64,000 nucleotides of DNA, from NCBI RefSeq assembly GCF_900100155.1, contig NZ_FMTP01000010.1, positions 1 through 64,000 on the forward strand, in the 5' to 3' direction. Under the pieces are notes generated by a model. The model ran no database searches. It was given only the letters and a program-made list of their open reading frames with translations, and was not told the DNA's origin. This DNA comes from Ancylobacter rudongensis. Its GTDB lineage: Bacteria > Pseudomonadota > Alphaproteobacteria > Rhizobiales > Xanthobacteraceae. Position numbers and translations under genes: made by a program. Position 1 is the stretch's first letter. Each line of letters begins with the position of its first letter. This document shows positions 1,954 through 35,705 of this stretch, piece by piece.

Positions 1954-2370
1954 ATGTGGATCAACCTGACAGACCAGGAGCGCGGGCTCATTAGCGTGTG
2001 TCTCAACGCACTCACGGTGCCCGAAGCCAAGGCGCTGATCGCGCGCCTCAACGAGCCGGCCGATCCCACGGACGGGACTTTCGTCGAGCGAGCGCGCGAG
2101 GACTACGAGTTCGGCTCGGATGGCGATGTGGACATTGACGATACGCCGGTCGTCTCGCGCAGCGAGAATGGCGCCTACGTCATGATGTGGGGCTGGGTGT
2201 CCAACGAGGACGCCGGCCTTGATGACGAGAGCGAGGACTTCTCGGTCGAGGCGCTGCAGGACGGCCGCTGGAAGTCGATCTTTCCCAAGCGCCTCTCCCA
2301 CCTCAATTCCGAACACGCGACCCATGCGGAAGCCTGGGCGCACATTCAGGAGCACGAAGACAATGAGTGA
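1954..2370 (+). CDS. unknown acidic protein
   Basis: Protein of 138 aa, strongly acidic (DYEFGSDGDVDIDDTPVVS region). It begins MWINLTDQERGLISVCLNAL, with no membrane segment. It is the first gene downstream of a site A palindrome, and its stop overlaps the ATG of the next gene. The middle (GAYVMMWGWVSNEDA) resembles small phage proteins of unknown role. Confidence 0.7.
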   Translation: MWINLTDQERGLISVCLNALTVPEAKALIARLNEPADPTDGTFVERAREDYEFGSDGDVDIDDTPVVSRSENGAYVMMWGWVSNEDAGLDDESEDFSVEALQDGRWKSIFPKRLSHLNSEHATHAEAWAHIQEHEDNE

Positions 2371-3082
2371 CCCGAAGGCGCCCGTGGCGCACCCCACCCT
2401 TCCCGGCTTCATCGAGATGGGCCACGTCGATGTGGACGCTGGCTCCATCTGGATCGGCGACGGCTGCTACGTGCTGAAGGACGCGGACGAAAAGCGCCCC
2501 ACGGACCTCGGCGAGGACTGGCACGGCATATGTGAGCGGTTCTTCGGCCGGAGCGGTTACCGGCATCAACAGATCGAGTGGAGCCGCTGGTCCGGCGCGC
2601 GAGAACGGGATCTTTTTGACAGCCCGGAGTGGAAAGCCTGGGTCGAGAAGTGGGGTTTGAGACATCCCGACACCCACAAGTCCGACACCATCTGCTACGC
2701 CGAGAAGCACGAGGCGATGCAGCGGCACTACGAGCGCTATTCCGCGGAGCATCCGTTCCAGCCGACGTCCGTCGACACCGGCTTCGCCCAGTTCAACCAC
2801 GATCTCGGTCATGCCGGCATGGGTGTGATGGTCTCGACCTTCTACGGCGACGGGACCTACCCCGTCTATGTCGAGTATGGCGAGGGCGGTCGCCCGCGGC
2901 GCGTGCTGATCGACTTCGATCCCGGCGCCGAGAATGAGCTGGTGCGCGGGTCGCCGGCGGACATCTTCCGGGTGCTCAGCAGCCATTATCCCGAGCTTGC
3001 TTCCGGCGATCGCAACATCGCGCCGATGTGCAGGAAGATCTCCGACATCGGCTTCCCCGATCTTTCCGCCGAGGCGGCGTAA
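2363..3082 (+). CDS. unknown phage protein
   Basis: Protein of 239 aa starting at ATG 2363 inside the end of the preceding gene (ATGAGTGA). The early motif VDVDAGSIWIGDGCYVL and the later STFYGDGTYPVYVEYG resemble a family of small beta-rich proteins with G-D-P/G-C-Y motifs found in phages and bacteria. The C-terminus is helical. A few extra residues are possible at the start. Function unknown; the nearest-family remark is an impression. Confidence 0.65.
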   Translation: MSDPKAPVAHPTLPGFIEMGHVDVDAGSIWIGDGCYVLKDADEKRPTDLGEDWHGICERFFGRSGYRHQQIEWSRWSGARERDLFDSPEWKAWVEKWGLRHPDTHKSDTICYAEKHEAMQRHYERYSAEHPFQPTSVDTGFAQFNHDLGHAGMGVMVSTFYGDGTYPVYVEYGEGGRPRRVLIDFDPGAENELVRGSPADIFRVLSSHYPELASGDRNIAPMCRKISDIGFPDLSAEAA

Positions 3083-4699: not shown

Positions 4700-5148
4700 C
4701 CAAGATCTGCCAACCCGGCACCCTCGAGCGTGCCATCGTCATCGCGACCGAGGCGCATGCCGGTCAGACTGACAAGGCGGGCCAGCCTTACATCCTGCAT
4801 CCGCTACGGGTCATGACGAGCCTCGGCGTGAATGCTGGGCAGCCTTTGCGCATCGTGGCTGTGCTTCATGACGTGCTTGAGGACTGCGAAGCCTGGACGC
4901 CCAACCTGTTGCGCGCCGAGGGCTTTGACCCGCGGATCGTCGAGGCGGTCGAGGCGATCACCAAGCGCAAGCACGTCGAGACCTATGGCGAGTATATCCA
5001 GCGAGTTCGGGCTAACCCCCTCGCTCGCCTCGTGAAGATCGCCGACATCGAGGACAATCTGCATCCCGATCGCGCGTGGAGACTGAACCCTGATCAATGC
5101 TGGAAGTATGGACTCGCTATTGGCGAACTGCGCCGGCCCAACCTCTGA
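4696..5148 (+). CDS. HD-domain hydrolase, RelA/SpoT (MESH1)-like
   Basis: Protein of 150 aa consisting of one HD domain. Visible metal-site residues match the ppGpp-hydrolase subfamily: H21 (AHAGQ), H35 (LHPLR), H58-D59 (LHDVLED) and D117 (KIADIEDN). Family proteins hydrolyse (p)ppGpp or related nucleotides with Mn2+. There is no synthetase domain, so it may lower alarmone, or another pyrophosphorylated nucleotide, during infection. It sits 8 bp upstream of rtcB in the same operon, which suggests a shared stress-countering role. Family is firm; substrate is inference. Confidence 0.85.
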   Translation: MTKICQPGTLERAIVIATEAHAGQTDKAGQPYILHPLRVMTSLGVNAGQPLRIVAVLHDVLEDCEAWTPNLLRAEGFDPRIVEAVEAITKRKHVETYGEYIQRVRANPLARLVKIADIEDNLHPDRAWRLNPDQCWKYGLAIGELRRPNL

Positions 5149-5155
5149 GGAAAAC

Positions 5156-6595
5156 ATGATCAACGGAAACACCCTCATCGAGTGGGGCTTCGAGCCGGGC
5201 CCGCTCTTTGGCCAGATGCTGCGCGACGCCAAGGCCCTCGCCGAGATCGGGATGACCAACGAAATGATCCGCGAGGAGCTGCGCATGCGCACGCCGGCTC
5301 CCGTGCCCGAGATCGCCTATCGCACCAACTCCATCCCGTTCAACGTCTTCCTCGACGCTGAGAATGACGACGAGCGCGCCAACAAGGCCGCGGTCGAGGC
5401 GCACATGGACGTGCTGATGCGCGTGCCGACGATCAAGCACGGCGCAGTGATGCCCGACGCCTGCCCGTCCGGCAGCGCGCCCGGCACCATTCCCGTCGGT
5501 GGCGTCGTCGCCGCGGAGAACGCGATCCATCCGGGGTTTCACTCGGCCGACATCTGCTGCTCGATGGCGATCTCCGTCTTCAAGCGCGACATGCCCATCA
5601 GCACGGTGATGGACACGGCGATGAAGACCACCCATTTCGGGTTCGGGCTCAACCCGCACCATGACCGCAGCGAGCTGCCGCCGGCGCTCGTCGGTCTGGT
5701 CAACCAGTTCGCCGACAACCCCTTCCTGAAGGATCTCGAGCGCTATGCGGTCGACCTGTTGCTGACCCAGGGCGACGGCAACCACTTCCTCTATGTCGGC
5801 CATCTCAGGTCGACCGGGCAGCTGGCGCTCGTCACGCACCACGGCTCGCGCGGCCTGGGCGCCCAGCTCTACAAGCGCGGCATGGCCGCGGCGCAGAAGC
5901 ACACCGCGAAGGTCGCTCCGCGCGTTCCGCTGCACAATGCCTGGCTCGAGGCATTCTCGGAAAGCGGCCAGCACTATTGGAAGGCCCTGCAGATCGTGCG
6001 GGAGTGGACGCGGCTGAACCACTTCGCGCTGCACCGCCTGATGCAGCAGCGGCTCGGGAATGCCATCGTCCACCAGTTCTGGAACGAGCACAATTTCGTC
6101 TTCCAGAAGTCGGATGGGCTGTTCTATCACGCCAAGGGCGCGACGCCCGCCTACAAGGGCTTCAGCAGCGACGACAGCGGCCAGACGCTCATTCCGCTGA
6201 ACATGGCCGAACCGATCCTGATCGCCAGTCCCTGGCCGGTTATGCGGCCCACAGCGCTGGAATTCGCACCGCATGGTGCCGGCCGCAACCTTTCGCGCTC
6301 CGGCCATATGCGCAAGCTGGCCGAGGAGTTCGGCGCCGACTCCCGCGGGCTCTCGGCGCGCGACAAGCTCGCCGTCGCCATGCGTGAGGTCACGGCGCGC
6401 GGTGTGGACGCCCGCTTCTACTGCGGCCACATCGACCTGTCGGAGCTGCCCAGCGCCTACAAGAACGCCCAGGCGGTGCAGGCGCAGATCGAGAAGTATC
6501 GGCTGGCCCATATCGACGACATGGTGCTGCCGGGCGGCGCGATCATGGCCGGCGATATCCAGCCCACCTGGCGCAAGAAGAAGCCGGCGAAATAG
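5156..6595 (+). CDS. rtcB: RtcB-type RNA-splicing/repair ligase
   Basis: Protein of 479 aa joining RNA ends that carry 2',3'-cyclic phosphate or 3'-phosphate with 5'-OH ends, using GTP and Mn2+. All signature residues are visible: D132/C135 (HSADICC), H210 (GDGNH), H229 (THHGSRGLG), H312 (EHNF), and the guanylated-histidine motif HGAGR with H373. The length exceeds E. coli RtcB (408 aa). The N-terminal ~45 residues (GFEPGPLFGQML) are an added segment resembling RNA-binding tails of nucleotidyltransferases. Start ATG 5156 has GAGGA upstream; an in-frame ATG at 5108 lacks this. In phages RtcB plausibly repairs tRNAs cut by host anticodon nucleases (inference). Confidence 0.95.
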   Translation: MINGNTLIEWGFEPGPLFGQMLRDAKALAEIGMTNEMIREELRMRTPAPVPEIAYRTNSIPFNVFLDAENDDERANKAAVEAHMDVLMRVPTIKHGAVMPDACPSGSAPGTIPVGGVVAAENAIHPGFHSADICCSMAISVFKRDMPISTVMDTAMKTTHFGFGLNPHHDRSELPPALVGLVNQFADNPFLKDLERYAVDLLLTQGDGNHFLYVGHLRSTGQLALVTHHGSRGLGAQLYKRGMAAAQKHTAKVAPRVPLHNAWLEAFSESGQHYWKALQIVREWTRLNHFALHRLMQQRLGNAIVHQFWNEHNFVFQKSDGLFYHAKGATPAYKGFSSDDSGQTLIPLNMAEPILIASPWPVMRPTALEFAPHGAGRNLSRSGHMRKLAEEFGADSRGLSARDKLAVAMREVTARGVDARFYCGHIDLSELPSAYKNAQAVQAQIEKYRLAHIDDMVLPGGAIMAGDIQPTWRKKKPAK

Positions 6596-7399: not shown

Positions 7400-7513
7400 A
7401 TGCAGTTCCTCGCCGCCATTGGCGCCCTCGTGGTCGCCACCCTCCTTCTGGCCGGCGCGATCAAGATCGCGTCCGAGCTGACCTTCAAGCCTGACAAGAA
7501 AGGGAAGAAATGA
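7400..7513 (+). CDS. small single-pass membrane protein
   Basis: A 37-aa gene starting at the first ATG after site A: MQFLAAIGALVVATLLLAGA then a basic tail ending KKGKK. It is one transmembrane helix with a positively charged end. Its stop overlaps the ATG of the SPFH gene (AATGA), so the two are coupled; a partner or regulator of the SPFH protein is likely. Confidence 0.65.
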   Translation: MQFLAAIGALVVATLLLAGAIKIASELTFKPDKKGKK

Positions 7514-8364
7514 AGCGCTTTACCCTCGGCCTGTTCGCCTTTGGCGCCCTCGCCGTTCTCGTGACCATCCTCGGCACCTACTACACCATCAATGAACGCG
7601 AGCGCGGCGTCATCCTGCGCAACGGCGCTGTCGTCGGTGACGCCGGCCCGGGCGCTCACCTCAAGGTGCCGTTCATCGACGACGTGGTCACGGTCTCGAT
7701 CGAGACCCAGAAGCAGCTCTACACCACGGCCGCCTACACGTTCGACCAGCAGCCGACGGATATCGCCCTGTCGGTCATCTACAGCGTGCCGGCCAGCCAG
7801 GTGAAGGCGCTCTATGCGCGCTTTGGCAGCATTGAGCGGATGATCGACAGCGTGGTCACGCCCAAGGTCATGGAGCAGACCAAGAACGTCCTCGGCGGCT
7901 ACACCTCGACGACGGCGGTGCAGAACCGCGCCAAGCTCAACAATGACGTCACCACGGCCATCTATCACGCCATCAAGGAGCTCAACGCGCCGATCCTCGT
8001 CGAGGCGGTGCAGATCGAGAACATCGACCAGAGCGACGCCTTCGAGCGGTCGGTCGAGGAACGCATGCTGGCCCAGGTCGAGGTCGAGAAGCTCAAGCAG
8101 AACGCGGAGCGCGAGAAGGTGCAGGCGCAGATTGTCGTCACCAAGGCCCAGGCTCAGGCGGACAGCCAGTTGGCCGTGGCAAAGGCGACCGCCGATGCCA
8201 CTCGTCTGCAGGGTGAAGCGGCCGCTGATGCGATCCGGGCCCGGTCCAAGGCACTCGCCGACAATCCGGCGCTGATCGAGCTCACCAAGGCCGAGAAGTG
8301 GAACGGAGCGATGCCGACCACCATGCTCCCCAACACGGCGATGCCCTTCTTCTCCCCGAAGTAA
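7510..8364 (+). CDS. SPFH/prohibitin-like (HflC/stomatin) membrane protein
   Basis: Protein of 284 aa: an N-terminal membrane anchor (FTLGLFAFGALAVLVTILGTYY), an SPFH domain (INERERGVILRNGAVVGDAGPGAHLKVPF onward), then a long Ala/Glu/Gln coiled coil (about 175-250) typical of prohibitins. SPFH proteins form membrane cages and, as HflKC, restrain FtsH protease. Phage homologues may alter membrane proteolysis or block superinfection; this is inference. The gene ends just before a strong intrinsic terminator, closing the left operon. Confidence 0.9.
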   Translation: MKRFTLGLFAFGALAVLVTILGTYYTINERERGVILRNGAVVGDAGPGAHLKVPFIDDVVTVSIETQKQLYTTAAYTFDQQPTDIALSVIYSVPASQVKALYARFGSIERMIDSVVTPKVMEQTKNVLGGYTSTTAVQNRAKLNNDVTTAIYHAIKELNAPILVEAVQIENIDQSDAFERSVEERMLAQVEVEKLKQNAEREKVQAQIVVTKAQAQADSQLAVAKATADATRLQGEAAADAIRARSKALADNPALIELTKAEKWNGAMPTTMLPNTAMPFFSPK

Positions 8365-25490: not shown

Positions 25491-25757
25491 TCAGTCCTTC
25501 AGCTCCTTCTGCCGTGCTTCCCACGCCTCGAAGGACTGAATCAGGAGATCCTTCATGGACAGGTCGTGCATCGAAGCCGTCGCCTTGAACCGGCGGTGCC
25601 AGGTCTTGGGCATGTTGAAGGTCATGGCGGTGTAGGGCTCACCGTTCATGTTGTTCGCCGCTTCCTTCGGCGCCGCGGCGATCGCGGCCGCGCCTAGGAA
25701 AGACGCCTTCTGCGGCCGCACCGGCGCCGCCTTCGTCTTCGGCTTTTCCTCGCTCAT
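25491..25757 (-). CDS. ribbon-helix-helix partition/DNA-binding protein
   Basis: An 88-aa leftward gene. The N-terminal ~40 residues are a disordered Lys/Pro/Ala region; the C-terminal part (MTFNMPKTWHRRFKATASMH then DLSMKDLLIQSFEAW) is a ribbon-helix-helix domain, as in ParG-like partner proteins of type Ib ParA. ParG-like proteins bind arrays of short repeats and stimulate ParA ATPase through their flexible N-terminus. Start overlaps the ParA stop. The AGCTA repeats nearby are natural candidates for its sites (inference). Confidence 0.8.
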   Translation of the reverse strand: MSEEKPKTKAAPVRPQKASFLGAAAIAAAPKEAANNMNGEPYTAMTFNMPKTWHRRFKATASMHDLSMKDLLIQSFEAWEARQKELKD

Positions 25758-26404
25758 AGTCGGTTCTCCGTCAGTCGGTTGACCCGGTCGACGATCTCCG
25801 CAGCAAGGGTGTCCGCCTTGTCGTTCAGGCTGGGGTATTTGCTCTCGGAAGGAGCGCGACCGGTGTTTTGGGCCATCGCGTAGCCCGTTTTGGCGGATAG
25901 ATCCTGCTCGGCCACCAGATAGAGCGACCCCTGCAGGATATATTGCCGCGCTTCGCTCACCGCCAAGTCGCTGTCCGTGGTCTTGTTGAGCACGAACATG
26001 ATCCGCTCCCTGGCGATGCCTTTGGCCACCAGCTCATTGGCAAATAGGAGCTGGGGCTTCAGATCGTCCAGCGTGAGGCCGGTCGGCACGACCACGAGCG
26101 TGGCCGCGCGAGCGATCTCGAGGCTCGACTGATCCGAATCCGGACGTCCGTCCGCCACGACGCAGTCGAAAGGCTCGCGCTTCATGGAGGAGGGGGAGTT
26201 GTAGGGCTCGGCGACGATGATGGGTTCGACGCCTTGAGCCGCGCGCATGGCGCACCAGTCGACAGAGGTCTTCTGCCGCGTGTTGAAGTCGCAGATCTTC
26301 ACCGACCAGCCCGCTGCGGCATAGGTGCGGGCCATGAGCCGGGCGATGGTCGATTTCCCGACCCCGCCTTTCTGCGAGAGACACCCGATGATCAGGTCAG
26401 CCAT
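25754..26404 (-). CDS. parA: ParA-family partition ATPase (small, type Ib)
   Basis: A 216-aa leftward gene with the deviant Walker box KGGVGKST (12-19), an A' region (FDCVVADGRPDSD) and a B region (ARAATLVVVPTGLT). Small size without an N-terminal HTH fits the type Ib ParA class of plasmids. With the RHH partner it forms a complete segregation cassette, which in a phage implies a plasmid-like prophage. The ATG follows a site B repeat (ATACAGAA-ATG) without a Shine-Dalgarno, suggesting autoregulation at that repeat and possible leaderless translation. Confidence 0.88.
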   Translation of the reverse strand: MADLIIGCLSQKGGVGKSTIARLMARTYAAAGWSVKICDFNTRQKTSVDWCAMRAAQGVEPIIVAEPYNSPSSMKREPFDCVVADGRPDSDQSSLEIARAATLVVVPTGLTLDDLKPQLLFANELVAKGIARERIMFVLNKTTDSDLAVSEARQYILQGSLYLVAEQDLSAKTGYAMAQNTGRAPSESKYPSLNDKADTLAAEIVDRVNRLTENRL

Positions 26405-27521: not shown

Positions 27522-27743
27522 GCTGTGATTACCGCTTTCTGTATCGTCGGCGTCGTCCTCGGCCTCGCCGGCGCCCAGCAGCTTCAGCCGCCGGACCATG
27601 CGAGCGAGCTTGCCGCGCAGCTCCTCATTCTCGTCGGTGAGCCGATCATTCTCCTCCGAGAGCCAGGCGAGGGTGACGACCGGCTCGCCGAGCTCGTTGA
27701 AGAAGTGGATCGGGTCGATCTTGCGGGAGGGGAGGGCGCTCAT
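27513..27743 (-). CDS. small coiled-coil protein (leftward)
   Basis: A 76-aa leftward gene overlapping the helicase stop by 4 bp. The centre is a heptad-type coiled coil (WLSEENDRLTDENEELRGKL) and the C-terminus is acidic (EAEDDADDTESG). Probably a dimeric accessory factor of the helicase or replication machinery; inference. Confidence 0.65.
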   Translation of the reverse strand: MSALPSRKIDPIHFFNELGEPVVTLAWLSEENDRLTDENEELRGKLARMVRRLKLLGAGEAEDDADDTESGNHSVS

Positions 27744-29335
27744 GCGGCAATTCCTTCAGCGGCGCCGCGGTTGGCAGCAAAGATGGACCAGTCGAAGTCC
27801 TGCCCGGCCGGCAGAATGCCCTCGACGAAGCCGGGCGTGTTGCGAACGATGTTCTCGCGCTGCCGGGCGTGGTCGCGCAGATAGGTGTTCAGGTTGCAGC
27901 TGTAGTCGGCGATGAAGGTGACGTTCGGCCCGCGCTTCTTGCGCCGCAGACCGCGGCCGATCCGCTGGCGCAGCTGCACCTCGGCCTTCATGCCGCCGAT
28001 GAGCTGGACGAGGGCGATCGCCGGCACGTCGACGCCGACGTCAAGAATGGTGGTGCCGATCACGCCATCGAGCTTGCCGGCGGCGAGGCGCTTGAGCTGG
28101 GTGCGCCGGGCGTCCTGGTCATCCTCGCCCTTGAGGAACTCGTAGGTGAGCCCGGCGTCCTTGTAGAGCTTGAGCAGGTTCGTGCCGTGCTTCTTGCGCG
28201 CGATCAGCGTGAGCACCGGCAGCCGGTAGATCGCGGCCATCTTGGCGTCGGTCACGGCCTGGGCGTGCATGTGCGGGTTCTCGACATAGCCGAGCTCATA
28301 GGCGCGCTCGAAGGGCGAGGTCTTGCGCAGCTTCTCGGGCGCGGGCACGTCGGCGAACTTGAAGATCGGCTTGGCGAGAATGCCGCGCTGGATGAGCAGC
28401 TCCTCGGGGATATTGATGAGGATCGGCCCGAAGGCGGCCATCAGGCGCATATTGTCGGCCGCCGAGTCGCGCATGAACGGCGTCGCCGTGAGCGCGACCC
28501 GGATCGTGGCGTTCTTGCAGTGGCGCAGGATCTCGTAATAGCTGTCGCCGCCGGCCTCGTGCGCCTCCTCGCCGATGACGACCTCGATCAGGGACAGGAT
28601 CTGGAGCACCTCGTTGCGCCGGCGCGTCTTGCGATCGAACGCCTCCTGGGCGAGCCGGGTGATCTCCTCATTGCTCATGTCGGCGTTCTTGTTCTTCGAC
28701 AGGTGGATCGATTTCACGATCGCCCGGCGCTCGACGCCGAGATCGGGCACCTGCAGCGCCTGCACCAGCGTCTGAACCATGCCGAGATTGACGCCGCGCA
28801 CGACGCGCATCTCGCCGTCGCCGATCTGCCCGGTGTTGAGGCCGATCGCCTTGAGCTGGTCGTCCATCTGGTAGAGGAGAATGCCGCGCGTGGTCAGGAA
28901 CAGCGTCATGCGTCGGTAGCGCGCCATGATCAGCTTGGCGATCTTCGACTTGCCGCCGCCGGTCGCCACCCGAATGATGCCGGCCCCGTGCTTCTCGACC
29001 TGGCGCAGCGCCTTCATCTGGTAGTCGTAGTCGGGATCGTCATTGCCGAACTCGTCGACGATCGGATTCTCCGGACCGAGCGGGCTCGCATGCGGCCGGC
29101 AGATACGGTTGACCGTGTGCCCGATGCGCGTCAGCTCCGCCTGCATCAGATGCACGAAGCCGGCCGGAAAGGTGTTCGTGATCACGTCGTAGAAGGACGA
29201 CTTGCCGCTCCAGGAGCCGCCCAGCCCCGCATCGACCTGATAGGACAGCAGCGATGTGGCGAATGCGGCGACCTCGCGGGACGGGTCGATCAGCTTCGCA
29301 ACGACCGCATTATGAGCGAGCTGGACGGTGGCCAT
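27740..29335 (-). CDS. SF2 DEAD/DEAH-type helicase (UvsW-like)
   Basis: A 531-aa leftward gene. Motifs: Walker A ATGGGKS (124-130), motif II as EEAH (256-259, variant of DEAH), motif III TATPF (283-287), motif VI QRIGRGLRR in the C-terminal RecA domain. The ~110-residue N-terminal region is extra. Phage helicases of this type unwind branched DNA during replication and recombination. ATG 29335 is chosen because GAAGGA lies upstream; a longer in-frame alternative would cross site A. First gene of the leftward operon, divergent from the ParB-like pair. Confidence 0.88.
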   Translation of the reverse strand: MATVQLAHNAVVAKLIDPSREVAAFATSLLSYQVDAGLGGSWSGKSSFYDVITNTFPAGFVHLMQAELTRIGHTVNRICRPHASPLGPENPIVDEFGNDDPDYDYQMKALRQVEKHGAGIIRVATGGGKSKIAKLIMARYRRMTLFLTTRGILLYQMDDQLKAIGLNTGQIGDGEMRVVRGVNLGMVQTLVQALQVPDLGVERRAIVKSIHLSKNKNADMSNEEITRLAQEAFDRKTRRRNEVLQILSLIEVVIGEEAHEAGGDSYYEILRHCKNATIRVALTATPFMRDSAADNMRLMAAFGPILINIPEELLIQRGILAKPIFKFADVPAPEKLRKTSPFERAYELGYVENPHMHAQAVTDAKMAAIYRLPVLTLIARKKHGTNLLKLYKDAGLTYEFLKGEDDQDARRTQLKRLAAGKLDGVIGTTILDVGVDVPAIALVQLIGGMKAEVQLRQRIGRGLRRKKRGPNVTFIADYSCNLNTYLRDHARQRENIVRNTPGFVEGILPAGQDFDWSIFAANRGAAEGIAA

Positions 29336-29379
29336 GGAGATTCCTTCGGGTTGCCTATTGCCTTGTGGTCCGAATATAG

Positions 29380-29397
29380 TAAGTAAGCACATACATC
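29380..29397 (+). promoter_or_regulatory. site A palindrome between divergent operons
   Basis: TAAGTAAGCACATACATC, 17 nt before ATG 29415 and 44 nt before the leftward helicase start, so it may control both directions. Confidence 0.7.
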
Positions 29398-29414: not shown

Positions 29415-30143
29415 ATGCTCAAGCCTGAATTTTCCAGCGTTTCCGTCGGGCTCCTGCGGCCGAATCCCTGGAACACCAACCGCGTCGCCGCCGACAATGA
29501 GGCCAAGATCCGCGCCTCGATCGAGCGCAACGGTCTGTTCAAGCCGATCGTCGTCCGCCAGGTGAAGGATGTTGCGGGCTACGAGATCATCGGCGGCGAG
29601 CATCGCTGGGAGCAGGCCAAGGAACTCGGCATGACCGAGGTCCCGATCTGCAATCTCGGCTTCATCAGCGAGAAGCAGGCCAAGGAAATCGGCGTCATCG
29701 ACAATGCGCGCTACGGCGCCGATGACACGCTGTCCTTCGCCGAACTTCTGAAGGAGCTCGGCGATGCGGATGAGCTGCAAGAATTCCTTCCCTACGGCGA
29801 GACCGATCTGAATGCGATCTTCTCTGCATCAGATATAGCGCTGGACTCGTTGGAAATTGACGAGAGCTTCGAGCGCGAGGCCGAGGCCGCCGAGGAGGAA
29901 GGTCCCGTCACCCGCCCGGCCAAGACCCATGCCGTGATGCGCTTCAAGCTCAGCCTGGGCGACGCCGAGCGCGTCACTGCCCTGATCTCCCGGACCCAGA
30001 AGGAGCAGGGCCTCACCACGGCCGACGACCTCACCAATGCCGGCGACGCTCTCGTTCACCTGCTGCAGAGCCTTCTGCCCAAGCCCGTTCACCTCGCGGA
30101 CGAAGACGAGATCGACGCCGCGCTCCAGGAAATCGCGTCATGA
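29415..30143 (+). CDS. ParB-like N-domain protein 1
   Basis: Protein of 242 aa. The ParB/Sulfiredoxin-like N-domain covers about residues 7-100: LLRPNPWNTN, IRASIERNGLFKPIVVRQ, and the nucleotide-site motif GEHR (61-64). The C-terminal half is acidic then helical, with no ParB-type HTH recognised. Proteins of this kind in phages sit near terminase or modification genes and may bind or hydrolyse nucleotides on DNA. Start ATG 29415 follows site A; stop overlaps the second ParB-like gene. Confidence 0.85.
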   Translation: MLKPEFSSVSVGLLRPNPWNTNRVAADNEAKIRASIERNGLFKPIVVRQVKDVAGYEIIGGEHRWEQAKELGMTEVPICNLGFISEKQAKEIGVIDNARYGADDTLSFAELLKELGDADELQEFLPYGETDLNAIFSASDIALDSLEIDESFEREAEAAEEEGPVTRPAKTHAVMRFKLSLGDAERVTALISRTQKEQGLTTADDLTNAGDALVHLLQSLLPKPVHLADEDEIDAALQEIAS

Positions 30144-30814
30144 GCCACACGTCGTCGATCGAGATTTGGGATATCGAGAAGATCATCCCCTATGAGGCGA
30201 ACGCCAAGAAGCACCCCAAGGAGCAGGTGAAGAAGCTTGCCCAGGCAATCACCAAGTTTGGCTGGACTCAGCCGATCGTGGTCGATGTTGATGGCGTGAT
30301 CATCGCCGGCCACGGCAGGCGTCTCGCCGCGCTGGAGCTGAAGCTCACCAAGGTGCCGGTCATTCACCGGGCCGACCTGACCAAGGCCGAGGCGGACGCG
30401 CTGCGCCTCGCCGACAACCGGGTGGCCTCGACCGATTACGACCAGGCGCTGATCCAGGACGAACTGCGCCGGCTCGCGGATGAGCTCGAGGGCTCCCAGA
30501 TCACGCTCCTCGATATCGGCTTCGACGAGAAGGAGCTCGAATTCACCATGAGCGACCTGGGCGAGGTCAATGACGACTTCTTCGTCGAGGACGTCGGCGA
30601 GGCGGTCGAGCAGCAGAAGAAGGAGAACGCCAAGGCGATCGAGGCGACGGACGACGTCGCCGCGCCGATCGGTGACGCCTTCGGCTTCAAGCGTGTCTCC
30701 ATTGCCCAGTCGCGCGCCATCCGCGAAATGATGAGCACCATCGAGACCTCGACCGGCAAGGTGGGGCCCGAGGCGCTGATCCTGTTCCTTTCCGACGCCC
30801 TCAATCGTAAGTGA
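30140..30814 (+). CDS. ParB-like N-domain protein 2
   Basis: Protein of 224 aa, start in the stop of the first ParB-like gene. Domain motifs: IIPYEANAKKHPKEQVKKLA, FGWTQPIVVDVDGVIIAGHG with GHGR at 57-60, and the ADNR motif (LRLADNRVAS). This is the type often fused to or adjacent to phage DNA methyltransferases, but no methyltransferase domain follows here. The C-terminal half is acidic and helical. Together with protein 1 it makes a tandem pair. Confidence 0.87.
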   Translation: MSHTSSIEIWDIEKIIPYEANAKKHPKEQVKKLAQAITKFGWTQPIVVDVDGVIIAGHGRRLAALELKLTKVPVIHRADLTKAEADALRLADNRVASTDYDQALIQDELRRLADELEGSQITLLDIGFDEKELEFTMSDLGEVNDDFFVEDVGEAVEQQKKENAKAIEATDDVAAPIGDAFGFKRVSIAQSRAIREMMSTIETSTGKVGPEALILFLSDALNRK

Positions 30815-30825
30815 GCGCATACTTA
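30808..30825 (+). promoter_or_regulatory. site A palindrome overlapping stop and start codons
   Basis: TAAGTGAGCGCATACTTA spans the stop of the ParB-like gene (TGA 30812-30814) and touches the ATG at 30825. If the start is 30825 a transcript from here would be leaderless; ATG 30834 is an alternative. Confidence 0.75.
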
Positions 30826-31241
30826 TGGACCCGATGCCGGCCAGCAATGTCATCTCGCTGAAGTCCCGCAAGCCGCTCGAGGTCGAGCAGGCCGAGCTCC
30901 TCGCCGCGGCCGAGATCAATGCCGCCGAAGCGGCCCTGCAGCAGGCCGACTGTGAGGAGCACCAGCTCCAGGCGCTCACCGACATCCGCGAGCGCCTGAT
31001 GAAGGGTGATATCACCGGCTTTGTCGTGGTCGCGCTGTCGCCGAGCGGCGTCTTTCTCACCGAGGTCGCCATTCCCGCCTCCGCCAAGCCGGTCGAGGTC
31101 ATGGCCTATTCGGGCGCGCTCAACGCGGTGAACCTCGAGCTCACCGACATGGCCCAGATGCTGCCCCAGATGCTCAATGACGGCAGCATCATCACGCCGG
31201 AGGAGCCGATCTACGAGGAAGCCTACGAGGATGACGTCTGA
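30825..31241 (+). CDS. unknown protein in ParB/ABC block
   Basis: Protein of 138 aa. A basic start (NVISLKSRKPLEVEQAELL), a long helix (AAEINAAEAALQQADCEEHQ), a beta pair (GFVVVALSPSGVFLTEVAIP) and an acidic end (EEPIYEEAYEDDV). Its TGA overlaps the ABC ATPase ATG, so the two are coupled. No family recognised; context suggests an accessory subunit of the ABC/GNAT system. Confidence 0.6.
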   Translation: MDPMPASNVISLKSRKPLEVEQAELLAAAEINAAEAALQQADCEEHQLQALTDIRERLMKGDITGFVVVALSPSGVFLTEVAIPASAKPVEVMAYSGALNAVNLELTDMAQMLPQMLNDGSIITPEEPIYEEAYEDDV

Positions 31242-31900
31242 TGGCCCGCTACGTCATCAATCGCTCCTTCACCTCCTCGGTCATGCGCACGCCGCGCGTG
31301 CTGGAGATCGCCGAAGGTTTCGGGCTCGGTCTCACCGACAAGCAGTTCGTCGTCTATGACAACCTCGAGCTCGAGATCGAGCAGGGCGACGTCGTCTACA
31401 TCAACGGCCAGTCCGGCTCGGGCAAGTCGCTCCTGCTGAAGGATCTTGCGACTCAGATGCGCCGGGACGGACTGCGCGTCACCGACCTCAACGAGGTGGT
31501 GCTGGAGGAAAAGCCGGTCATTGAGCTGGTCGGCCGCACCATCAGCGAGGCGACCGATCTCCTGGCCAAGGCCGGCATCTCCGACGCCTGGATCTACATC
31601 CGCAAGCCCAGCGAGCTCTCGGACGGCCAGCGCTATCGGCTCAAACTCGCCAAGGTCATGGAATCCGACGCCGATGCCTGGATCGCCGATGAGTTCGGCG
31701 CCGTGCTCGACCGCGTCACCGCCCGCGTCGTCGCCTTCAACATGACCAAGGTCGCCCGACGCATGGGCAAGACGCTCATGGTCGCCACCACCCACACCGA
31801 TCTCAAGGACGAGCTGGCGCCCAGCCTGATCGTGACCAAGCGCTTCCGCGAGAAAGTCGAAACCGAGCGCGGTGTCGCTCAGCTTGGAGAAGCAGCATGA
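31241..31900 (+). CDS. soluble ABC-type ATPase
   Basis: Protein of 219 aa with complete ABC motifs: Walker A GQSGSGKS (56-63), signature LSDGQ (126-130), Walker B DAWIADEFG (about 145-153) and H-loop His185 (TTHTD). It is not fused to or flanked by a permease, so it is not a transporter. It resembles the ATPase part of COG2401 proteins, which pair an ABC ATPase with a GNAT acetyltransferase, and a GNAT gene lies 580 bp downstream. Coupled to genes on both sides. Possible ATP-driven DNA scanning or modification factor (inference). Confidence 0.88.
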   Translation: MARYVINRSFTSSVMRTPRVLEIAEGFGLGLTDKQFVVYDNLELEIEQGDVVYINGQSGSGKSLLLKDLATQMRRDGLRVTDLNEVVLEEKPVIELVGRTISEATDLLAKAGISDAWIYIRKPSELSDGQRYRLKLAKVMESDADAWIADEFGAVLDRVTARVVAFNMTKVARRMGKTLMVATTHTDLKDELAPSLIVTKRFREKVETERGVAQLGEAA

Positions 31901-32199
31901 ATTTCGGCGAAGCACTGAAGCAGGTGAAGCTCGGCTATCGGGCAGCGCGCGGGTCCTGGAACGGCAAGGGCATGTTCGTCTATCTCGAGCATGGCTCGGC
32001 GCCGACCAGCTTCCACCAGCTTGCCGAGCGCGGCACCATCAATGGCGTCTCCTCGCTGCTGTTCGAGGTCGGCCATGAGGGCACGACCGTCCGCATGCCG
32101 CATCTCAGCCTGAAGGCCGCCGACGGCTCGCGCGTCACCGGCTGGCTCGCCTCCCAGACCGACCTGCTGGCCGAGGACTGGGTGGTCTATCCCGGCTGA
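31897..32199 (+). CDS. DUF2829 / Tad2-like anti-Thoeris protein
   Basis: Protein of 100 aa covering a whole DUF2829 domain: MNFGEALKQVKLGYRAARGS, WNGKGMFVYL, then MPHLSLKAADGSRVTGWLAS and DLLAEDWVVYPG. Tad2 proteins of this family bind and sequester the cyclic ADP-ribose signals (gcADPR) made by Thoeris ThsB, and some bind other cyclic nucleotides. Cytoplasmic; no partner needed. Start overlaps the ABC ATPase stop (ATGA). Family call is confident, ligand is inferred. Confidence 0.88.
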   Translation: MNFGEALKQVKLGYRAARGSWNGKGMFVYLEHGSAPTSFHQLAERGTINGVSSLLFEVGHEGTTVRMPHLSLKAADGSRVTGWLASQTDLLAEDWVVYPG

Positions 32200-32480
32200 T
32201 GCGCGGCTATCTCCTCACTCTCGGCACGGCGCTGAGTGTCCTCGTCAACGCGCTGCTCGCCGGGCAGCCGACCGAGACGCTCTGCTACCGCGCGGCCAAG
32301 GCACGGCGAGCCGGGCGAGGGTGGGGCTGCGTCTTCTGCCAGCTGGCCGACCTGTTCGACCGCGACCATTGCGGGAACACGCTGCGCTGGTGGGAGACGC
32401 GACGCGAGCGCGACATGCAGAGCAATGATCGCGCGGACGCAGCAGGGATCGACAGGGATGAGCGAGGGCTGGCGCCGTGA
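32199..32480 (+). CDS. small phage membrane-associated protein
   Basis: Protein of 93 aa. The start MRGYLLTLGTALSVLVNALL is hydrophobic, followed by AGQPTETLCYRAAKA and CVFCQLADLFDRDHCGN, a pattern (NALLGG.P.ET...RA ... HC) I associate with a widespread small phage protein of unknown role. The Cys/His residues could bind metal. TGATG-type overlaps with both neighbours. In other phages it often sits near lysis genes, so its place here is unusual. Confidence 0.65.
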   Translation: MRGYLLTLGTALSVLVNALLAGQPTETLCYRAAKARRAGRGWGCVFCQLADLFDRDHCGNTLRWWETRRERDMQSNDRADAAGIDRDERGLAP

Positions 32481-33349
32481 TGCTTTCTGACACCGAGACA
32501 CTGATCGAGCGCATCGACAGCCCTCGCGCGTTCTTCTCGCTCGCGGACGAGATGTTCGTGGAGCGCGGAACCATCGACGACTGGTATCTGCTCCACGATC
32601 TCCACTACAAGGCCGAGAAGCTGCCCATTGGCCCGCGCTTCTGGCGCCTGGTGCTCGCCGGCCAGACCATCGGCGTCCTCGTCACCGGCACGCCCAAGGG
32701 CATGCTGCGCGAGCGGCACATCGTGTTCCCGAACCTGAAGCCACGCTCGGGCGACACGCGGCTGACCAACACCAACCGCTACCACTACATCAACGCCAAT
32801 TTCCGGGTGATCTCGCGCTTCGTGATCGACACGATGTTCCGCGGCATCGGCGCCGGCTACCGGATGATGAACCTGGTCTCGCGCATGGAGGGCAACACCT
32901 TCATGGAGATCCAGTCGTCCATGTCGAAGTTCAACGCCTTCGGCCAGAAGGCCGGCTTCAAGTTCGTCAAGCCGATGAACGCCAACAAGTATGACCAGGT
33001 GCTGCGGTTCTTCCGCTCGCACTTTGCCGCCAGCCCGCAGGATTTCGAGGCCATTCTCGCCGAGATCGCTGCCAAGCCGCCGGCCGAGCAGCAGCGGCTC
33101 GCCGAGATCTGCACCGACTTCTATTTCCGCAACTCAGCGCTCGAGAACACCTCCAATGGCGGCGCGGCGATGGAGCAGCGCCGGGCGTCGATGAGCCTGC
33201 GCGATGCGGTGAAGGGCATTCAGCAGATCGGGCTTGCCTCGCCCATGTATGGGATCTGGAAGTGCCCGGACCCGAAGGGCAGCGTTCCTGAGCGCCTCGC
33301 TCTGACCCAGTTCGACCGGCAGGGGCCAAGCGAGAGGCTGCGCCTGTGA
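32480..33349 (+). CDS. GNAT-fold acyltransferase-like protein (Mom-like candidate)
   Basis: Protein of 289 aa. GNAT features: strands FWRLVLAGQTIGVLVTGTP (54-72), motif A RFVIDTMFRGIGAGYRMM (113-130) with R-G-x-G-A-G for the CoA pyrophosphate, and strand 5 with NAFGQKAGFKFV (152-163). The C-terminal 90 residues are extra, including a helical basic part. The Mu DNA-modification protein Mom is also a GNAT; adjacency to an ABC ATPase and two ParB-like genes supports a role in DNA base modification or protection. Substrate unproven. Start overlaps the preceding TGA. Confidence 0.75.
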   Translation: MLSDTETLIERIDSPRAFFSLADEMFVERGTIDDWYLLHDLHYKAEKLPIGPRFWRLVLAGQTIGVLVTGTPKGMLRERHIVFPNLKPRSGDTRLTNTNRYHYINANFRVISRFVIDTMFRGIGAGYRMMNLVSRMEGNTFMEIQSSMSKFNAFGQKAGFKFVKPMNANKYDQVLRFFRSHFAASPQDFEAILAEIAAKPPAEQQRLAEICTDFYFRNSALENTSNGGAAMEQRRASMSLRDAVKGIQQIGLASPMYGIWKCPDPKGSVPERLALTQFDRQGPSERLRL

Positions 33350-33597
33350 TCAAGACCCGCAAGCAGCGCGAGATCATGAGCCTCATCCTGGCCGGTGTGG
33401 CCAGGTGCAAGCTCTACACCGCCGAGGAGATCAACCAGAAGGTCTCCTTTGCGTGCAGCGAGGGTGCGACCCGTGTCTCGCTTCGCTTCCTCGTCGCGCA
33501 CGGCATCCTGGTGAAGAAGAGAGTGGGCCGGAACGTGATCTACAGTCCAACGCCGCAGGCGTATGTGGATTTCTATGTGCTTCCAGAGCACGCATGA
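33346..33597 (+). CDS. winged-helix DNA-binding protein
   Basis: Protein of 83 aa: one winged helix, with LYTAEEINQKVSFACSEGAT then RVSLRFLVAHGILVKKRVG and wing NVIYSPTPQ. Coupled to the GNAT gene (GTGATCA overlap). It lies directly upstream of the long inverted repeat at 33602-33726, which is a possible binding site. Could be a late-gene regulator or a DNA-recognition subunit for packaging. Confidence 0.75.
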   Translation: MIKTRKQREIMSLILAGVARCKLYTAEEINQKVSFACSEGATRVSLRFLVAHGILVKKRVGRNVIYSPTPQAYVDFYVLPEHA

Positions 33598-33759: not shown

Positions 33760-34440
33760 ATGACGTCTCCGGCGGAGGAAGAGAACGAGGTTGAAGGAAC
33801 CGGCGCTGAAGACGCATCCGGTCCCGGCCGGCGTTTGACCGATGCCGAGTTTGCCGAGATCCGGGAGCTCTATGAGCTCGGCAAGGCCGGGCTGAGCGAG
33901 CTCGCCACCACCTACAAGATCTCGCGCCAGACGCTCTCCCGGCGTTTCAAGGATGTCGGCGCTAAGAAGGGCTCGCGGGCCCATGAGCTGGCTGCTGCGG
34001 CCAAGAAGGCCGCGGTCGCGGCGACGGGTGTTTCCGCCGGCGCCACCATCGAGCGCTTCGCCGACCGGCGCGCCGAGTGGATCGAAGAGACCCGGATGAA
34101 CGGCTACCAGGCGCTCAAGGAAGCGCGCCTGATCGGCCGCAAGATCATGTCGGAGAACCTGCGCGCGACGCCTCCGCGGCCGATGGCGCATATCGACGAC
34201 GATCTGAAGGCGCTCGCCCGCTACAACAAGCTGCTGATCGACAACATCGCCGCCAGCATCGAGCTGCTGCAGGCCAACGACCATGTCGATGAGACCACGC
34301 TGCCCTCGCTGTCGATCGAGGATCTCACCGACGACGACATCCTCGAGCACCACAAGAACATCGGCGCGCTCCCCGAGGATGCGACGGTCGCCGACATGCT
34401 CGCGGAGAATGATGAGGATGGCGAGGAGGGCTCGCCGTGA
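33760..34440 (+). CDS. terS: terminase small subunit
   Basis: Protein of 226 aa. The HTH segment (AEFAEIRELYELGKAGLSEL then ATTYKISRQTLSRRFKDVG) is typical of small terminases, which recognise the packaging site and recruit the large subunit. Later parts are helical oligomerisation segments with an acidic end. ATG 33760 has GAAGAG upstream. It overlaps the large terminase start by 4 bp, as in most phages. Confidence 0.85.
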   Translation: MTSPAEEENEVEGTGAEDASGPGRRLTDAEFAEIRELYELGKAGLSELATTYKISRQTLSRRFKDVGAKKGSRAHELAAAAKKAAVAATGVSAGATIERFADRRAEWIEETRMNGYQALKEARLIGRKIMSENLRATPPRPMAHIDDDLKALARYNKLLIDNIAASIELLQANDHVDETTLPSLSIEDLTDDDILEHHKNIGALPEDATVADMLAENDEDGEEGSP

Positions 34441-35705
34441 GGAGCGGGCTCTCGCTGAAGCTGCACAAGCTCCAGAAGCTGGTCCTGCGCGATCCCCGGC
34501 GCTTCCGGGTGATCGTCGCCGGCCGGCGCTGGGGCAAGACGCAGCTCTCCAAGATCTCCCTGATCCGCTTCGCCACCGAAAAGCAGAAGCAGCTGGTCTG
34601 GTATGTGGCGCCGACCTATCAGATGGCGCGCGACATTCTCTGGGACGACCTGAAGGCGTCGATCCCGGCCCAGTGGGTCCTGAAGATCCACGAGACCCGT
34701 ATGGTCATCTGGCTGATCAACGGCTCGCGCATCCATCTCAAGGGGGCCGACAAGCCCGACACGCTGCGCGGCGTCGGCCTGAACTTCCTCGTCATGGACG
34801 AGGCCCAGGACGTCAAGCAGGAGACCTGGGAGCTGGTGCTGCGCCCCACGCTCGCCAGCACCGGCGGCCGGGCGCTGTTCATCGCCACCCCGAAGAACTT
34901 CAACTGGCTCCACGCCATCTATGTGCTCGGTCAGCGCGGCGCCATCGTCGAGGATGAGCGCGGGCGCCGGGTGCCCAATGACTGGAAGAGCTGGCAGTTC
35001 CCGACCATCACCTCGCCCTTCATCCCGAAGAGCGAGATCCGTCAGGCCCGGCGCGACATGGATCCGCGCTCCTTCCGCCAGGAGTTCGAGGCGAGCTTCG
35101 AGACCATGTCCGGCCGGGTCTATTACCCGTTCGAGCGCGGCGAGCATGTGGGCGACTATCCCTACAATCCGGCGCTACCGATCTATGTCGGCATGGACTT
35201 CAACATCGACCCGATGTCGATGATCATCATCCAGGAGCAGCACAATGGCGAGATCTGGGTGGTGGATGAGGCGGTGCTGCCGGGCTCCAACACCCAGGAA
35301 GCGGCCGACGAGCTCGGCCGGCGCTACTGGAAGCGGATGAACGCACTCTCGATCTATCCCGATCCGGCCGGCAACAATCGCAACCATGACCGTGGCGAGT
35401 CCTCGCTCGACATTCTGCGCGAGGCCGGCTTCCGCAACATCTACTACAAGCGCAAGCATCCGCTGGTCATGGACCGGGTGAACGCCGTCAATCGCCTGCT
35501 GCGCACGGCCGAGGGTCAGGTCCGCCTGCGCGTCGATCGCAAGTGCCGCAAGTTCATCGATAGCCTCGAGCAGACCATCTACAAGGAAGGCTCGCGCGAG
35601 GTCGACAAGAGCAAGGGCACCGAGCACGCGGCGGACGCTTTCGGCTATTACGCTGACTTCCGGCACCCGGTGATCAAGCCGAAGATCCTCGGCATATCTC
35701 TTTGA
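34437..35705 (+). CDS. terL: terminase large subunit
   Basis: Protein of 422 aa from GTG 34437. ATPase motifs: Walker A-like GRRWGKT (29-35), Walker B LVMDEAQD (about 117-124), coupling motif ATPK. The nuclease domain begins at VGMDFNIDPMS (Asp near 253), with DPAGN (about 308) and HAADAFGYY (about 394-402) supplying further metal ligands. It is the packaging motor and end-cutting nuclease. GTG overlaps the small-subunit stop. Confidence 0.95.
   Translation: MRSGLSLKLHKLQKLVLRDPRRFRVIVAGRRWGKTQLSKISLIRFATEKQKQLVWYVAPTYQMARDILWDDLKASIPAQWVLKIHETRMVIWLINGSRIHLKGADKPDTLRGVGLNFLVMDEAQDVKQETWELVLRPTLASTGGRALFIATPKNFNWLHAIYVLGQRGAIVEDERGRRVPNDWKSWQFPTITSPFIPKSEIRQARRDMDPRSFRQEFEASFETMSGRVYYPFERGEHVGDYPYNPALPIYVGMDFNIDPMSMIIIQEQHNGEIWVVDEAVLPGSNTQEAADELGRRYWKRMNALSIYPDPAGNNRNHDRGESSLDILREAGFRNIYYKRKHPLVMDRVNAVNRLLRTAEGQVRLRVDRKCRKFIDSLEQTIYKEGSREVDKSKGTEHAADAFGYYADFRHPVIKPKILGISL

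Follow-up and report, generated by a model that had tools for sequence, protein, structure and literature searches.

The notion of a phage DNA acyl-modification system built from an ABC ATPase and a GNAT acyltransferase reportedly goes back to Iyer et al. in 2013. Phage ABC–GNAT proteins are predicted to acylate DNA bases (PMC7824862), and because this prediction is already in print, the idea of ABC–GNAT DNA modification is not new here. Other described systems that come close are Mom of phage Mu (PF25680, structure 8bv8), TmcA, Kre33 and NAT10, which combine a helicase-type ATPase with a GNAT acting on RNA (PMC6770127), and phage fusions of ParB-fold domains, a fold that binds nucleoside triphosphates (NTP), to N6_N4 methyltransferases (PMC12704722). 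The locus compared with them lies at positions 29415-33349 of a 64,000-nucleotide stretch of Ancylobacter rudongensis DNA (NZ_FMTP01000010.1, positions 1 to 64,000; hereafter the window), contig C18 of a 4.5-Mb bacterial genome assembled in 18 contigs. It is the core cassette of an SSU5/RHEph10-type phage-plasmid, with the order ParB1–ParB2–X–ABC ATPase–GNAT directly upstream of the terminase genes. We think it likely that this cassette is a split version of a phage system for acylating DNA bases, an ATP-driven N-acyltransferase that ParB subunits would direct to the DNA and that would act before packaging.

Sequence comparison shows the window GNAT (32477 with GTG, or 32480 with ATG, to 33349, forward strand) and ABC ATPase (31241-31900, forward strand) to be homologous to the two halves of phage ABC–GNAT fusion proteins. 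The split GNAT profile aligns with the fused ABC–GNAT profile at an hhalign probability of 95.6 (E 1.2e-8), spanning both a His-Tyr (HY) motif and the acyl-CoA loop, and Tenacibaculum phage pT24, which carries the predicted system, is itself a tblastn match of the window ABC (E 3e-9). Phages of Gordonia, Arthrobacter, Nonlabens, Tenacibaculum and Pseudoalteromonas likewise encode proteins that the ABC matches. Pfam recognises a P-loop ATPase and a GNAT in proteins of P12024S, EastWest and Jace, and the depositors of P12024S note an ATPase and a GNAT domain within one protein. The window differs from the fusions in encoding ABC and GNAT by two genes that flank cargo, in having X and two ParBs, and in a helical C-terminal extension on the GNAT; the pT24 record, too, shows the ABC–GNAT protein as a pair of neighbouring genes. 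Since the window and the contigs of its lineage have this split arrangement, the system is a variant rather than a plain member of the fusion system.

Within that lineage the pairing is constant. Every cassette gene was mapped by tblastn on 35 IMG/VR contigs, some of them near-duplicates: the GNAT is present in all 35, the ABC in 34, ParB2 in 33, ParB1 in 30 and the terminase large subunit (TerL) in 32, all absences falling at contig ends, and ABC precedes GNAT in the same order in 34/34 contigs that reach both genes. Sixteen bacterial contigs from one GTDB-based scan all carry ABC and GNAT, 15 of them with both ParBs and 15 with TerL, the misses again lying at contig ends. All 30 annotated phage records with the GNAT likewise hold the ABC (identity at least 55%), ParB1 and TerL (identity at least 56%); outside these records the next TerL drops to 42.5% identity. 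The ABC matches 50 records in all; the remaining 20 show at most 35% identity, and among six of these that were opened, five have a fused ABC–GNAT gene and pT24 has the ABC and GNAT pieces in adjacent genes. Given 34/34 IMG/VR contigs, 16/16 bacterial contigs and 30/30 phage records, chance is excluded as the source of the ABC–GNAT pairing, and the conservation across phages that an earlier note on this DNA had proposed as a check is borne out for this pair, with both genes together in 50/50 contigs and 30/30 records. The counts describe conservation and not independent events, because the 30 phage records form one lineage.

The association with ParB holds for the fused relatives as well. IMG/VR has at least 595 confirmed loci of the fused type; the best 80 were fetched and nine of them dropped for having less than 600 bp upstream; ParB lies upstream on the same strand, within ~320 bp, in 61 of the remaining 71. 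The genes mostly overlap, with two at ~280-295 bp, and among other open reading frames (ORFs) of at least 150 aa on the same contigs a ParB was found upstream in only 1/288. The adjacency holds in 10/11 clusters at 65% identity, a clustering that left out three of the 80 proteins as lying outside 330-420 aa. These loci were selected by closeness to SL25 and many are mutually related, so they sample part of the diversity. ParB tails may also differ between partners: CxxC occurs in the C-terminal part of 0/68 ParBs adjoining fused ABC–GNAT (no filter on upstream length), while the two ParBs read beside Mom both end in a CPxC stretch, which suggests that the tails are partner-specific.

Phages repeatedly pair a ParB with one of several exchangeable enzymes that modify DNA bases, and ABC–GNAT takes the place of that enzyme. 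This follows from finding Mom, Tet_JBP and a methylase beside ParB, together with the methyltransferase fusions of PMC12704722. The closest view of such a swap is given by the Arthrobacter phages EastWest and Martha, whose genomes correspond before the slot (65% identity for the preceding gene, 55% for ParB) and after it (a DNA-binding gene at 80%, the sliding clamp at 45%, a pair at 28% and gp82/76 at 81%). In between, EastWest has ABC–GNAT (gp75) and two small genes, and Martha has a 73-aa gene and Mom (gp71; PF25680, E 4e-61), so that the two form a ready comparison of Mom and ABC–GNAT in similar neighbourhoods. In phage Antuna, the gene of ParB gp48 overlaps that of gp49, which matches Mom with 26.8% identity. 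ParB gp17 of Pelagibacter phage HTVC112P is followed by gp18, a Tet_JBP protein (PF12851, E 1.1e-29); this gene (2100-3008 of the stretch retrieved) is annotated as a DnaJ chaperone/SNF2 and is likely a misannotated base oxygenase. ZRG1 encodes a ParB–N6_N4_Mtase fusion upstream of its terminase genes, with one gene labelled adenosylmethionine decarboxylase between; like the published fusions, it ties a ParB/Srx domain to a DNA-modifying enzyme but has a methyltransferase where the window has ABC and GNAT, and in ZRG1 the fusion lies near terminase. There are exceptions: no enzyme is recognised next to the terminase-proximal ParB of RcHotPocket, and in DSL-LC06 no ParB is annotated at that position. 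Annotation labels alone were not trusted, since ParB-only genes in nickie and RHEph10 are called DNA methyltransferase. The novel support for acyl-modification is contextual.

Proximity to the terminase admits another explanation, in which ParB, ABC and GNAT form a packaging accessory that marks or presents the packaging site to terminase without general base modification. The window has a probable terminase small subunit (TerS; 33760-34440, forward strand; phrog_867, 'DNA binding domain'), assigned to that role by position, followed by TerL (34437-35705, forward strand; Pfam and PHROG matches). The cassette precedes TerS and TerL in all SSU5-type contigs long enough to include them, and in SL25. 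Among fused loci, TerL lies no more than 2.5 kb downstream in at least 17 of 48, a lower bound because the search used a two-sequence model. However, the 12.4 kb around the EastWest module and the 13 kb around the pT24 genes contain no annotated terminase, the P12024S gene sits ~4.5 kb before terL between primase and helicase, and Mom occupies the corresponding place in Martha. A packaging accessory is thus an unlikely reading. For a DNA-base acyl-modification system, terminase adjacency suggests late expression from gene order. Mu mom is expressed late.

The GNAT itself carries the conserved motifs LHYK, RGxGxxYRxxN and EIQSSMSKxNxF and a canonical acyl-CoA loop. It belongs to phrog_886 (E 3.5e-109), its Pfam match at E 0.12 is below cut-off, and an AlphaFold2 model from a 25-sequence alignment (mean pLDDT 80.9, pTM 0.67) gives a GNAT fold, with the predicted GNAT order of strands and helices, the helical C-terminal extension, and HY placed after helix 32-40. 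PHROG labels can mislead, phrog_886 and phrog_498 being cases in point: phrog_886 is labelled 'ABC transporter ATP-binding subunit' while its window member is a GNAT. The Cyrano depositors call the GNAT of that phage 'MK0520 protein', a name that goes with COG2401. Foldseek against the PDB places NAT10 and TmcA at ranks 1, 2, 4 and 6 (best E 2.1e-4, TM-score 0.32 by query). The high rank of NAT10 was discarded as proof, given its high root-mean-square deviation (rmsd), generic GNATs that are level in VIA-align, and the absence of NAT10 and TmcA from the 50 rows of the latter. The comparison with Mom proposed in the earlier note is similarly equivocal, as Mu Mom (8bv8) comes at rank 8 in VIA-align (Z 10.1, rmsd 3.5, 141 residues aligned), level with generic GNATs, although a protein named Mom is rank 2 in a viral model library (E 1.6e-4). 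On the predicted model the GNAT fold is clear, and fold alone leaves the closest functional class undecided.

Sequence likewise fails to attach the protein to a known nucleobase-modifying family. Neither PF25680 (Mom) nor PF13718 (TmcA/NAT10) is among the Pfam matches of the window GNAT at E up to 1, and fused GNATs match generic Pfam GNAT models best, an RNA cytidine acetyltransferase coming sixth in a PDB sequence search (E 0.022). Direct descent from Mom or TmcA finds no support in profile comparison. The earlier note had pointed to Mom as a DNA-modifying GNAT, but the window protein does not belong to that family. Mom and the window GNAT are alike in fold, in an invariant HY, in ParB neighbours (Antuna, Martha) and in the shared Martha/EastWest slot; they differ in that there is no significant sequence relation, no ABC ATPase is annotated alongside Mom in the fetched stretches of Mu, Martha and Antuna, and the RGxGxG-type loop canonical in the window GNAT is not evident in the Mom alignment. 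A proposed equivalence between Mom S124, the inactive mutant in 8bv8, and the serine of EIQSS was dropped, as S124 sits in NSESR by the record numbering.

HY is a feature that these enzymes share. It is invariant in split GNATs (23/23), fused GNATs (16/16), Mom (7/7) and TmcA (7/7). In ordinary GNATs from the genome that holds the window, an HY 30-100 residues before the acyl-CoA-loop pattern was found in one of 24; these come from 27 Acetyltransf_1 matches, three of which could not be parsed and were left out, and two apparently lie within one ORF. The distance rule was applied to these controls and not to Mom, whose alignment shows no clear canonical loop. The end points of the alignment put the TmcA histidine at H545 of yeast Kre33, and the H545A mutant loses RNA acetylation (PMC6770127). 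In human NAT10 the HY histidine aligns at H537 and not at H548.

HY and the fold bear on two further explanations. The first, that the cassette is a TmcA-like acyltransferase of tRNA or mRNA, is favoured by the NAT10 and TmcA matches at the top of the Foldseek results and by the common HY histidine, and the TmcA/Kre33/NAT10 group does share an ATPase-plus-GNAT logic and the acyl-CoA loop with the window. Yet that group has a helicase-type ATPase (PMC6770127) instead of an ABC, an RNA substrate, and a domain, PF13718, that the window GNAT does not match; the ParB partners, the Mom, Tet/JBP and DNA-methylase alternatives beside ParB, and the adjacent terminase all point to DNA, which makes an RNA substrate very unlikely. 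The second, that the GNAT acetylates host or phage proteins such as RNA polymerase for host takeover, draws on a fold that is level with the protein N-acetyltransferases RimI and Naa60 and on described phage GNATs that act on RNA polymerase (PMC7824862). Its fixed coupling to an ABC ATPase and ParB, the swap with Mom and the lack of HY in 23/24 ordinary GNATs render protein acetylation distinctly unlikely. The GNAT is proposed to be the catalytic subunit, an acyltransferase, of a DNA-base acyl-modification system. A bolder generalisation, toward which we lean rather less than away from it, is that nucleobase GNATs (Mom on N6-adenine, TmcA/NAT10 on N4-cytidine, and the phage family) share an HY that most ordinary GNATs lack, and that the cassette could do to DNA, driven by ATP, what TmcA does to RNA, producing an N-acylated base such as N4-acyl-deoxycytidine or N6-acyl-deoxyadenosine; this would be a core trait of SSU5-type phage-plasmids, present in hundreds of plasmid records from Enterobacterales and Acinetobacter. 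No description of the shared HY signature or of the split ParB–ParB–ABC–GNAT cassette was found in the available sections of the literature searched, mostly outside subscription journals. The cassette is not described in the sections available of PMC12839542, PMC10853773 and PMC7761591; two phage-plasmid papers do not mention ParB, ABC or acetyltransferase in the main text available, and the accessible part of a wheat-phage modification paper does not mention nickie.

The ABC ATPase (ABC_tran 9.7e-13; phrog_293 8.8e-46) is complete. GQSGSGKS, SDGQxYR, ADEF, GAVLDR and TTH, which are the Walker A, signature, Walker B, D-loop and H-loop of a full catalytic set, are kept at 95% or more in 48 distinct sequences, as the earlier note had surmised when it spoke of full motifs. 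A transporter was rejected, for no permease is recognised among the core cassette genes by Pfam or PHROG search; instead the protein is proposed to be an ATP-driven DNA clamp that opens or presents a base. It also matches mad3 of PADLOC (E 1.4e-11), and a similar match is given by the SL25 fusion protein (E 4.8e-10). This weak similarity, along with the ParB/Srx nuclease activity cited in PMC12839542, would fit a restriction-like defence, with the cassette recognising and cutting the DNA of competitors and ParB as the nuclease. No other nuclease is recognised among the core genes, and ParBs of the same type adjoin modification enzymes; such a defence is highly improbable.

Both ParB proteins are predicted to have the ParB/Srx fold. 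ParB1 (29415-30143, forward strand; PF02195 at 52.7 bits against a cut-off of 26.3; phrog_723, E 4.3e-61) keeps its GG.HR and DN.RYG.DD motifs at 95% or more among 43 sequences, has no recognised helix-turn-helix (HTH), and has homologues that adjoin Mom in Arthrobacter phages; it is proposed to be an NTP-dependent DNA-targeting subunit. ParB2 (30140-30814, forward strand; PF02195 at 26.9 bits, barely above the same cut-off; phrog_930, E 2.9e-77) has a GHGR motif and relatives outside the lineage that include ParB–DNA methylase fusions, and is proposed as a second targeting subunit. Both are annotated as ParB-like partition proteins and the element resembles phage-plasmids, so the pair could be imagined to segregate it. 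However, ParB_N is the only domain over the Pfam cut-off in either protein, neither an HTH nor a dimerisation domain being found, and TIGR00180 is below cut-off in both. The window further encodes, on the reverse strand, a ParA-like ATPase (25754-26404) with a small partner (25491-25757) that weakly matches ribbon-helix-helix proteins (E 0.0041, below cut-off), probably a partition pair apart from ParB1 and ParB2. A role in partition is thus hardly credible.

X (30825-31241, forward strand; 138 aa) has no Pfam match at E up to 1. Its own profile locates it in 34/34 IMG/VR contigs that reach it and in RHEph10, always between ParB2 and ABC; as 29 of the 34 contigs went into that profile, together with RHEph10 and the window, five contigs count as independent finds. 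X evolves fast (13-41% identity to the window copy across 22 aligned sequences) and is predicted to comprise a long helix, two strands and a helix. Neither Foldseek (best E 0.43, MADS-box proteins) nor VIA (best Z 5.1, a coiled coil) gives a convincing fold. The profile finds nothing in nickie, SSU5, ANB28 or Cyrano, and SSU5 gp128, considered as a relative, is unsupported at a profile probability of 8.6. The suggestion that this protein is an unrecognised part of the system therefore holds for the present branch, where X is constant and is proposed to be an accessory subunit, and gains no support from those four phages.

Taken together, a DNA-base acyl-modification system of this kind may work as follows. 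The ParB proteins, with bound NTP, would load on phage DNA and choose sites. An ABC dimer, driven by ATP, would grip and distort the duplex, exposing a base, and the GNAT, by way of the invariant His-Tyr, would take the acyl group of an acyl-CoA-type donor and attach it to an exocyclic amine, either N6 on adenine or N4 on cytosine. The modified DNA would then be packaged and, at the next infection, could resist host restriction or other defences that recognise DNA; shielding phage DNA from bacterial defences would probably be the purpose of the acyl group. Of the proposal in the earlier note that a split ABC/GNAT module with ParB partners modifies phage DNA before packaging, homology and context have stood up, and the chemistry is a prediction from sequence.

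Several observations weigh against this reading. The modified nucleoside, the donor and the sites rest on prediction, and a single pair of phages examined closely carries the swap argument. Co-occurrence in the split form, in all 50 contigs and 30 records, is confined to one phage lineage, and no ParB was found upstream in 10/71 fused loci. The top NCBIfam matches of the ABC are transporter ATPases such as LolD, far under cut-offs, and not DNA-clamp ATPases, which is why the clamp role is inferred rather than read from the family. Structural matches of the GNAT are level with generic GNATs. In profile comparisons with Mom, the split GNAT reaches an hhalign probability of 5 and the fused GNAT 0.7; with TmcA, the split GNAT reaches 29 (E 5.7e-4), and the fused GNAT 95 but limited to the common acyl-CoA loop, PF13718 in fused members being at best 0.009 (2/16). 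HY is two residues only and can, as a short sequence match, arise by convergence, and PMC6770127 assigns Kre33 H545 to a 'TS3 motif' and not, like R637, to the acetyltransferase domain.

The nearest annotated relatives of the block are in Rhizobium phages such as RHEph10, followed by Pseudomonas phage nickie, Stenotrophomonas phages, SSU5, Cyrano, which is an SSU5-like phage-plasmid (PMC9928086), and Klebsiella relatives. Among 72,556 plasmid records, the GNAT has matches in 905 (E 1e-5) and the ABC in 896 (E 1e-30). By genus, the GNAT and ABC counts are 341 and 340 in Klebsiella, 207 and 202 in Escherichia, 147 each in Acinetobacter, 90 each in Enterobacter and 49 each in Salmonella, totals that are compared per genus and not record by record. 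The 60 plasmid matches listed are mostly elements of 100-120 kb, in which the usual label is 'hypothetical protein' for the GNAT and 'ATP-binding cassette domain-containing protein' for the ABC. In the bacterial family of the window, the GNAT occurs in one of the 296 genomes searched, its own, as expected of a mobile element. If the acyl-modification reading is right, a DNA-base modification has gone unnoticed among the core genes of a common phage-plasmid group; this would provide a new nucleobase-acylating enzyme and bear on how SSU5-type elements survive restriction and move genes.

All the main components that the earlier note had placed upstream of terminase, two ParB-like domains, a stand-alone ABC ATPase and a GNAT-fold protein, lie at or within a few bases of where it put them. 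Its title also included Tad2, and it suggested the winged helix as a further part; neither is consistent. The Tad2-like protein (Thoeris anti-defence 2; 31897-32199; PF11195, E 6.5e-23, 81.5 bits against a cut-off of 25), a 93-aa ORF that was absent from its list (32199-32480; phrog_3342, 9.5e-10, function unassigned) and the small winged-helix-like protein (33346-33597; phrog_900, with weak matches that are all below cut-off), each on the forward strand, are variable passengers and not core, with tblastn matches in 11, 4 and 13 of the 35 IMG/VR loci, respectively. The gap from ABC to GNAT spans ~40 bp to 2.2 kb among the loci measured and holds varied small genes, a variable cargo slot with Tad2 or proteins labelled by eye as HAD-like phosphatase, transglutaminase-like and kinase-like.

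Wherever contigs extend far enough upstream of ParB1, the cassette is preceded by a DEAD/ResIII helicase gene in the other orientation (window 27740-29392, reverse strand). In Sphingomonas sp. NFR04 the cassette lies on an 856-kb contig, far above phage-plasmid size, and perhaps is an integrated copy. Elsewhere, the window encodes an RtcB-like RNA ligase (5108-6595; PF01139, E 2.8e-23) and an SPFH/Band 7 protein (7510-8364; E 4.2e-26).

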